Assembly: GCF_037860755.1 (NCBI RefSeq)
Contig: NZ_JBBEOI010000017.1
Coordinates: 1 to 34,420, forward strand
Length of the DNA: 34,420 nucleotides
Direction: 5' to 3'
DNA from: Aquipuribacter hungaricus
Lineage (GTDB): Bacteria > Actinomycetota > Actinomycetes > Actinomycetales > JBBAYJ01
Made by a program: the position numbers and the translations under genes. Under the pieces are notes generated by a model, which saw only the letters and a list, made by a program, of their open reading frames with translations, ran no database searches and was not told where the DNA came from. Below, piece after piece: positions 32,625 through 34,420 of this stretch. How positions within the stretch are numbered: position 1 is the first letter of the stretch; each line of letters begins with the position of its first letter.

Positions 32625-32766
32625 GGCGTCAACCTGTCGCAGCCGGTGCGCCGTGACAAGGTCCCCGAGGTTCCATTCGTGTGACGGCTGGTCCCGGCTT
32701 CGACGCCGGGCCCGCGGACGGGCCGGTCGGGTCAGCGCGGGACGCGTGCGGGGGACCGTGCCGTAT

Positions 32767-32783
32767 CGGGCCGGGTCGGCCCG
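32767..32783 (-). terminator. Small hairpin after the pseudo-helicase gene
   Basis: CGGGCC (32767-32772) pairs with GGCCCG (32778-32783) around a 5-nt loop, 3 nt after the stop of the minus-strand gene. A second stem, CCCGGC (32693-32698) / GCCGGG (32705-32710), follows further on. Confidence 0.45.
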
Positions 32784-32786
32784 TGC

Positions 32787-34420
32787 TCAGCCGACGTGGA
32801 CGACGCCGCCGGAGAAGTAGGGGTCGGTGCGGCGGACGAGCCCGTCGTCGCCGCGCCGGTAGCCGGCGCTGAGGCCGAGCCGCCAGTCGCAGCGGTCGTC
32901 GAGCGCGGGGGACAGGCTGGGGGCGCCGAAGCGTTCGGCGTCGACGGCTACCAGCAGCTCGGCGGCGGGCCTGGCCCGGGTCTCGTCCCGGGCGTGGGCG
33001 CGCGCGGTCGTCACCAGGACCTCGCGGGGGCCGGGCGCGTCGCCGGGGCGCGGGGTGCCGGTGAGGACGTCGGCGTGGGGCAGGTGCTCGCGGAGCGCGT
33101 CGGCCCACACCGTGACGTCCTGGCGGCGGGGGGCCACCACGACGACCGGCCGGCCGCGGCCGGCGACGTGGTGCAGCGCGGCGACGCCGAGCAGGAGGCG
33201 CTGCCGGTCGTCCGCGGCCACGACGACGCCGCGGCCGCCGGCGAGCACCCACTGCTGGAGGGCGAGCAGGCCGGCCTCGTCGAGCCCGACCTCCTCGGCC
33301 GAGGCGACGAACGCGTGCGAGGCGGCGGTGCCCAGGCGCGTCGCGCGCCGGGCGAGGTCGTCGGCGTGGTCCTGCAGGACGGCGCGGGTGACGCCGAGCA
33401 GACCGGCGGCCGGGCGTGCGCGCACCTCGGTGCGCAGCAGGGCGACCTCCTCGCGCAGGAGCACCGTCTCCGACCGGTGGCCGACGAGCAGCTCGGCGAG
33501 CAGACCGCGCGTGGCGGCGAGCTCGCCGGCGAGGAGCTCGACGGCGCGGGTGGCCGGGTCCGAGGGGGTGGTCGGGGCGCTCGTGGCGGTGGGGGCCACG
33601 GCGGTCGGGGTGGTGGTGGTCGGGGTGGTGGTGGTCGGGGTGCTGGCGGTCGACGTGATGGCGGGGTCGGCAACCGCGCCACCGGCCGGACCTGTCGGCG
33701 CGGTGACCGACTGCGTGGGGATCGAGGTGGCCGGCTGACGGGCGGGAGCGGAGGTCGCCACGTCCGTCGTGCGCGGGACGGGCGGAGCGGCCGGCGTCGG
33801 GATCGACGTCGGGGCGACGGGCTGCGCGGGGGCCGGCGCGGTGAGCCCCGGCGCGGTCCGTGCCGGCACGCCGGCGGCAGCCAGCCGGCCCTGGGCGACA
33901 GCACCGAGGAACGTCGCCGGCGAGGAGACGCCGGCGGGGAGGCCGGGCGCCTGTGCCGCTGCCCCGCCGGTCACGGCGGGCGCAGCAGCTGGCGGACGAG
34001 GAGTACCGGACGTCGCGGCCGCGATCGCCTCGGCCGCCGTGAGGGGCGGGGCTGCCGGCAGGGGGAAGACCGGCGGCACGGAGGGTCGTGTCCCGGCCGC
34101 GGGACGAGGCGCCCCTGCCGACGGCCCGGGTCGCGCGACACCGGGAGGCGAGGGACGGGGACCGCCCGGGGGAGGCCCGGGACGGGGTGCGACGGCACCA
34201 GGCGTGCTGCGCGCCGCCGCCGAGGACTGGACGTCCGAGGTCCGGAGGGCGCCGGGCGCAGGGGCCGGCGCGTCCGTGGCCGGGCGGGGAGAGCCCGGGG
34301 GAGCCGGTACAGGCCGGCCGGTCGACGACATGCTCAGCGACTGGCCGCCGGTGCTCAGCGGACGCGCTGCGCCCGCGGGCCCGTCGGACGGGGCGCTCCG
34401 AGGGGCGGGGGTGCGGACCG
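32787..34420 (-). CDS. Pro/Ala/Thr-rich protein with coiled coil and degenerate SF2-helicase N-lobe (5' end possibly outside window)
   Basis: The first ATG in the window is 34331, giving 514 residues, but the frame stays open to the right edge with the same Pro/Ser/Ala composition and no ribosome site precedes 34331, so the true start may lie outside. Numbering from 34331: residues 1-255 are disordered and Pro/Ala/Thr-rich; about 262-310 is a coiled coil (ELLAGELAATRGLLAELLVG); about 340-514 resembles the first RecA-like lobe of DEAD/DEAH SF2 helicases (VVVVAPRRQDVTVWADALRE, EVLVTTARAH). The expected ATP-binding GxGKT is missing (VVAADDRQRLLLG), the DExH box is D464-A-E-R467, and motif III SAT is S488-A-G490, within WRLGLSAGYRRGDDG and DPYFSGGVVHVG. 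It stops there, with no second helicase lobe. It is therefore probably not an ATPase; a nucleic-acid or protein-binding role is inferred. Confidence 0.7.
   Translation of the reverse strand, partial: VRTPAPRSAPSDGPAGAARPLSTGGQSLSMSSTGRPVPAPPGSPRPATDAPAPAPGALRTSDVQSSAAARSTPGAVAPRPGPPPGGPRPSPPGVARPGPSAGAPRPAAGTRPSVPPVFPLPAAPPLTAAEAIAAATSGTPRPPAAAPAVTGGAAAQAPGLPAGVSSPATFLGAVAQGRLAAAGVPARTAPGLTAPAPAQPVAPTSIPTPAAPPVPRTTDVATSAPARQPATSIPTQSVTAPTGPAGGAVADPAITSTASTPTTTTPTTTTPTAVAPTATSAPTTPSDPATRAVELLAGELAATRGLLAELLVGHRSETVLLREEVALLRTEVRARPAAGLLGVTRAVLQDHADDLARRATRLGTAASHAFVASAEEVGLDEAGLLALQQWVLAGGRGVVVAADDRQRLLLGVAALHHVAGRGRPVVVVAPRRQDVTVWADALREHLPHADVLTGTPRPGDAPGPREVLVTTARAHARDETRARPAAELLVAVDAERFGAPSLSPALDDRCDWRLGLSAGYRRGDDGLVRRTDPYFSGGVVHVG
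33604..33642. repeat. 15-bp tandem repeat in the Thr/Pro linker
   Basis: GTCGGGGTGGTGGTG occurs at 33604-33618 and 33619-33633, with a third partial copy from 33634. On the coding strand it makes a repeated TTTTP pentapeptide, frame-neutral if the copy number changes. Confidence 0.75.

Follow-up and report, generated by a model that had tools for sequence, protein, structure and literature searches.

A lone XPB/PbeA-like helicase lobe, apparently maintained but inactive, behind a coiled coil and a Pro/Ala/Thr-rich arm in one actinobacterial genus

The window, that is, the whole stretch of 34,420 nt that was analyzed, makes up all of G000:C17, one of the 547 contigs in an assembly of Aquipuribacter hungaricus. 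Near its end, it carries a minus-strand open reading frame (ORF) that encodes a Pro/Ala/Thr/Gly/Ser-rich arm, a predicted coiled coil, and a single helicase-like lobe, with the following features, of which the motifs were placed by alignment.

32787..34331, minus strand: whole ORF of the putative pseudohelicase, 514 aa counted from the ATG
33561..34331, minus strand: arm rich in Pro, Ala, Thr, Gly, and Ser, residues 1-257, with low conservation in the genus (28-41% pairwise identity)
33408..33560, minus strand: predicted coiled-coil helix, residues 258-308 (67-92% pairwise identity in the genus)
32790..33374, minus strand: helical linker and lone SF2 RecA-like lobe 1, residues 320-514
33195..33218, minus strand: erased Walker A/motif I, AADDRQRL, residues 372-379 (relatives, AVTGxGKT)
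32934..32945, minus strand: erased motif II, VDAE, residues 463-466 (relatives, DExH)
32862..32870, minus strand: altered motif III, SAG, residues 488-490 (relatives, (T/S)AT)
32847..32855, minus strand: RED-like motif R-G-D, residues 493-495, the Arg and Asp of which are shared by all 12 aligned relatives
32625..32786, no strand: 162 nt that separate the ORF from the next gene, not enough to encode a second lobe

The reading frame upstream of the ATG stays open up to the contig edge at 34418, and the gene is probably cut by the contig end, with its true start lying beyond it. Translation probably does not begin at the ATG at 34331, because the N-terminal PREPAVTVVP common to both orthologues in the genus is absent from the window. 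Matches to the missing N-terminus were all weak (best E = 0.226), and a contig-end candidate (C227) was rejected after its sequence was read. An open frame at such a G+C content proves little alone, and the proof is carried by homology and the orthologues. The amino acids P, A, T, G, and S make up 79% of the 257 residues of the arm, in agreement with the initial annotation, which had described an intact frame with a Pro/Ala/Thr arm and a coiled coil in front of the lobe. The coiled coil was predicted from hydrophobic spacing, and helicase homology starts at about residue 350 (33284).

Profile comparison indicated that the ORF ends in lobe 1 of an SF2 helicase of the XPB/PbeA type, which spans its last ~165 residues. 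Searches with the single sequence gave no match in the ORF for Pfam and nothing significant for the PDB (phmmer with the lobe), and that of NCBIfam gave only a weak helicase match (TIGR04095, E = 7.5e-4, residues 452-495); therefore, profiles were needed. The lobe as a query matched 16 of 297 genomes in a sample of the order, some of them weakly or by chance, and this search yielded two-lobed SF2 helicases with ~30% identity to the lobe. When a profile of six active two-lobed relatives with no row from the genus of the window (A4) was compared with the window's own genome, the lobe was the best match, with an E of 3.0e-25 over profile positions 6-182 of 448 and a score of 87.9 bits versus 6.7 bits for the best of 2000 shuffles. 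Alignment by hhalign gave a probability of 99 and an E of 9.1e-18, and XPB chains were the best matches when the PDB was searched with a family profile (A5). Thus, the assignment to the first SF2 lobe in the initial annotation was borne out, with its extent set at ~165 residues.

The predicted fold was in line with this assignment in one of two models. An AlphaFold2 model from an alignment of the window segment with 29 of the 30 named loci, helicase rows among them, was RecA-like (pLDDT 80, pTM 0.71), and its best VIA match was AfXPB (2fwr_B; Z 19.3, 2.8 Å, 160 residues); this fold is not independent of the alignment because the model leans on the helicase rows. The model from the single sequence was poor (pLDDT 57), with no significant fold match. 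The RecA-like fold expected from the initial annotation was, therefore, recovered with the alignment and not with the sequence alone.

The ATP-site motifs have been replaced. The initial annotation had stated that the Walker A motif is absent, and this agrees with the alignment, in which AADDRQRL stands in place of AVTGxGKT and both orthologues show DPDPQRRL, with GxGK(S/T) found in none of them. It had also proposed that the DExH box is DAER; the loss itself holds, whereas the register does not, as the alignment sets VDAE opposite motif II, one residue off, and L003 shows VDPE there. Motif III is indeed SAG, with SGG or SGS in the orthologues and (S/T)AT in none. The second RecA lobe and motif VI, of which the lobe had been reported missing, are absent from the window protein and the orthologues, and a search of the six frames of the window with the A4 profile did not find lobe 2.

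To compare the losses, we took the 38 lobe-1 residues that are unchanged in the six active relatives and divided them into 12 ATP-site and 26 other invariants by the Q motif and motifs I, II, and III, which we assigned to the ATP site. The genus keeps 0 of the 12 ATP-site invariants versus 17 of the 26 others (Fisher p = 2e-4), those lost among the latter including the T, L, and Q of motif Ia and one Ser further on. R493 and D495, which correspond to the outer RED residues of XPB in a register read by eye from archaeal alignment rows, are kept in all three genus members, with the middle Glu changed to Gly or Ser. In StXPB, DNA is contacted by the RED residues, and the affinity for DNA falls when they are mutated together (PMC7672443). 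The lobe has no basic excess (24 K+R vs. 26 D+E).

The gene was present in all three genus genomes examined, which are also all those examined from the family, with an intact frame and identical losses, and both orthologues are without lobe 2, like the window protein; neither, accordingly, has an intact Walker A or DExH motif. Pairwise identity within the genus was 63-86% for the lobe and 28-41% for the arm. The dN/dS comparison proposed in the initial annotation gave an omega of 0.093 for the lobe by the codon model (2dlnL 126 vs. omega 1), and values of 0.075 and 0.091 were obtained for the neighboring NMT1 protein and one permease. For the coiled coil, the grid optimum was near 0.1, as it was for one permease; the omega of 1.000 that IQ-TREE returned for these two was discarded as apparently an optimizer left at its start. 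The arm gave 0.158 from a saturated alignment (tree length 10.9), and this value was set aside. By NG86, which takes no account of the extreme third-position G+C, omega was 0.23-0.71 for the lobe versus 0.12-0.36 for the neighbors, and in pairs with the window, it was 0.53-0.71 versus 0.26-0.36, so that constraint seems looser than in the neighbors. Identity at codon positions 1 and 2 was above that at position 3 in every lobe pair. Thus, the lobe is under purifying selection by both the codon model and NG86, with the selection and conservation evidence resting on three genomes.

The gene neighborhood, with an ABC permease and an NMT1 protein, is conserved in the genus, and the two sister genomes also have PAP2-like and pyrimidine-catabolism-like genes nearby (names partly assigned by eye). 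In the window, the minus-strand segment 28852-32624 encodes an NMT1/THI5-type substrate-binding protein and two ABC permeases, which are conserved near the pseudohelicase gene in the sister genomes. Because the orthologues share the neighborhood, the frame, and the losses, and omega is about 0.09, the sequences indicate a maintained pseudoenzyme rather than a decaying gene, as the initial annotation had suggested for an inactive lobe. No paralogue was found in the window's own genome.

To date, the form with a coiled coil and a lone lobe has been observed in a single genus. Whole-profile matches were found in 3 of 396 genomes of the larger order sample, all of the genus. In samples of the class (394 genomes) and of the phylum (396 genomes), which were drawn evenly and may not include the sister genomes, only the window's own genome gave such a match. 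The other sample matches were helicases or weak rows, not every row having been inspected. The genus alignment (A2) gave no relative in a first profile scan of genome contigs, phage records held none, and a plasmid scan returned two records, both annotated as sigma factors. Active forms with two lobes were confined to other families.

The closest known systems are actinobacterial XPB/PbeA-like SF2 helicases, many of them fused to sigma-70 regions, from Arthrobacter, Brevibacterium, and Pseudoclavibacter (L055, L058-L073, and L076). Their lobe 1 aligns with the window lobe without large gaps at about 28-37% identity, with RGVV, P...W, RLGL, and RxD conserved, whereas they have motifs I, II, and III, lobe 2, and motif VI, none of which the window protein has, and many carry sigma regions where it has the coiled coil and arm. 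L055 (5737-8682, plus strand) combines an XPB/PbeA-like helicase with sigma-70 regions 1.2, 2, 3, and 4 in one protein, helicase-sigma-70 single proteins also occur at L058-L063, L065-L073, and L076, and the sigma region 2 signature string is present in 17 of the 30 named loci. Archaeal and eukaryotic XPB (2fwr, 6p4f, and TFIIH XPB) share the lobe 1 fold, by the alignment-based model, and the positions of the RED Arg and Asp; unlike the window protein, XPB itself is an active two-lobed ATPase with a thumb and a damage-recognition domain. PbeA, a component of the DndCDEA-PbeABCD phosphorothioation defence system, has PLD, Res, and helicase domains (PMC6459918). The PADLOC PbeA models matched L055 (E = 2.4e-56) and L022 (1.2e-40) and the window protein only weakly (0.0025), and the window protein differs in having no Pfam match in its ORF, no lobe 2, and no dndC in its genome (G000). 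A strong dndC homologue (L141; G001:C5:57602-58906) was found in one of the three genus genomes only, on another contig.

Given the established SF2 mechanism, the absence of motifs I and II together with that of lobe 2 implies that there is no motor, and we infer that the protein cannot hydrolyze ATP or translocate. An ATP-independent binding module, probably a dimer and probably with DNA as its ligand, is suggested by the preservation of the lobe, the retention of the RED residues, and the presence of the coiled coil; the repurposed binding module of the initial annotation is thus a reasonable reading, strengthened by the kept RED Arg and Asp. The explanation that we prefer, as quite possible if somewhat short of probable, is a genus-specific pseudohelicase in which lobe 1 of an XPB/PbeA-like helicase was kept without its ATP site or lobe 2 as an ATP-independent dimeric DNA tether. 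The coiled coil would pair two copies, the arm would serve as a spacer without fixed structure, and the face that is left, with the RED Arg and Asp in it, would let the dimer hold DNA without ATP, perhaps distorted or opened, so that it acts as a passive tether. Against this, an XPB-like grip on DNA without lobe 2 and the thumb would be weak, the lobe has no excess of basic residues, and several invariants usually placed on the nucleic-acid side are lost.

In a plausible, although less favored, alternative, the fold was kept as a protein-binding surface that does not bind DNA, with the coil and arm as a scaffold and, for example, RNA polymerase or a partner helicase as the ligand. The charge of the lobe fits such docking, and the fusion of two-lobed relatives to sigma-70 regions makes a transcription-side partner conceivable. 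Mfd has a UvrB-homology module without ATPase motifs, the domain D2 of which provides the docking surface for UvrA (PMC7835731). However, the RED Arg and Asp are kept, and the neighboring transport and pyrimidine-catabolism-like genes have no obvious link to such a role, and DNA as the ligand is slightly ahead of protein. It is very unlikely that the gene is instead a decaying helicase whose frame is intact only by chance, given the high G+C content: the loss of lobe 2 and of the ATPase motifs, the looser NG86 constraint, and the long branch would suit decay, whereas the intact frame and identical losses in three of three genomes, the codon-model omega, and the codon-position identities do not. 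A split helicase, with lobe 2 supplied in trans from another gene to complete the motor, is highly improbable, since motifs I and II both belong to lobe 1 and ATP hydrolysis could not be regained through a partner lobe 2; many lobe-2 matches exist in the genus genomes, but several adjoin a lobe-1 match and, thus, represent ordinary two-lobed helicases (e.g., G000:C156; rows partly checked). Chance resemblance without helicase ancestry can practically be dismissed, because the null results of Pfam and the single-sequence model, which would favor it, stand against the match to the genus-free profile, the shuffles far below it, and the hhalign result.

A helicase turned into a binding module has partial precedents. 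Utp25 is reported to be a pseudohelicase that keeps the helicase fold and both domains with its ATPase function lost, and D. radiodurans PriA is reported to have lost ATPase function and kept DNA binding; together with the Mfd module, these show that such helicase repurposing happens. Unlike Utp25 with its two domains, the window protein has a single lobe on a coil and a disordered arm and belongs to another SF2 branch. Pseudohelicases are already known, and it is the single dead lobe on a coil and disordered arm that looks new; our literature searches on sigma-helicase fusions and degenerate RecA-like domains found nothing on point. Named pseudohelicases are few, and a dead lobe under selection with active and half-degraded relatives offers a compact case for ATP-free functions of the lobe and for its preserved face. 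A doubtful extension is that the protein represents a new actinobacterial class of one-lobe pseudohelicases from the sigma-fused branch, namely, dimeric ATP-independent recognizers of opened or distorted DNA that would use the RED face and recruit partners through the arm; if so, they might act, for example, at promoters or damage.

Degraded forms also occur outside the genus. Motifs I and II are kept in 56 of 59 distinct full lobes there, a count that leaves out loci with an E over 1e-3, partial matches, duplicates, and loci from the A4 genus-genome, G399-copy, and missing-N-terminus searches; L066, which carries AVTGSGKT, is among the lobes with both motifs. The exceptions, from G059 (L011), G409 (L021), and G399 (L022), have both lobes. 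The lobe of L021 is identical to that of L057, a metagenome-assembled genome labeled Frankiaceae, and G399 has a second, more degraded, also two-lobed copy nearby (L034). L021/L057, L022, and L034 share with the window protein a Pro/Ala-rich N-terminus, a coiled-coil-like stretch, and damaged helicase motifs and differ from it in that both lobes are still present. The tree leaves the attachment of the genus clade unresolved (stem 2.9, a long branch) and does not join it to L021, L022, and L034. L011 (712-3357, minus strand) is a two-lobed helicase with the Walker A Lys replaced (AATGRVG), without the motif VI signature, and with DEVH kept. In L027 (1195-2709, plus strand), lobe 2 seems to shift frame near its end, possibly by a frameshift or sequencing error. 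The two nearby coiled-coil proteins of G399 (L094, 138-2354 and 3012-5951, minus strand) have two-lobed helicase domains that are progressively degraded, and this pair is a natural decay series.
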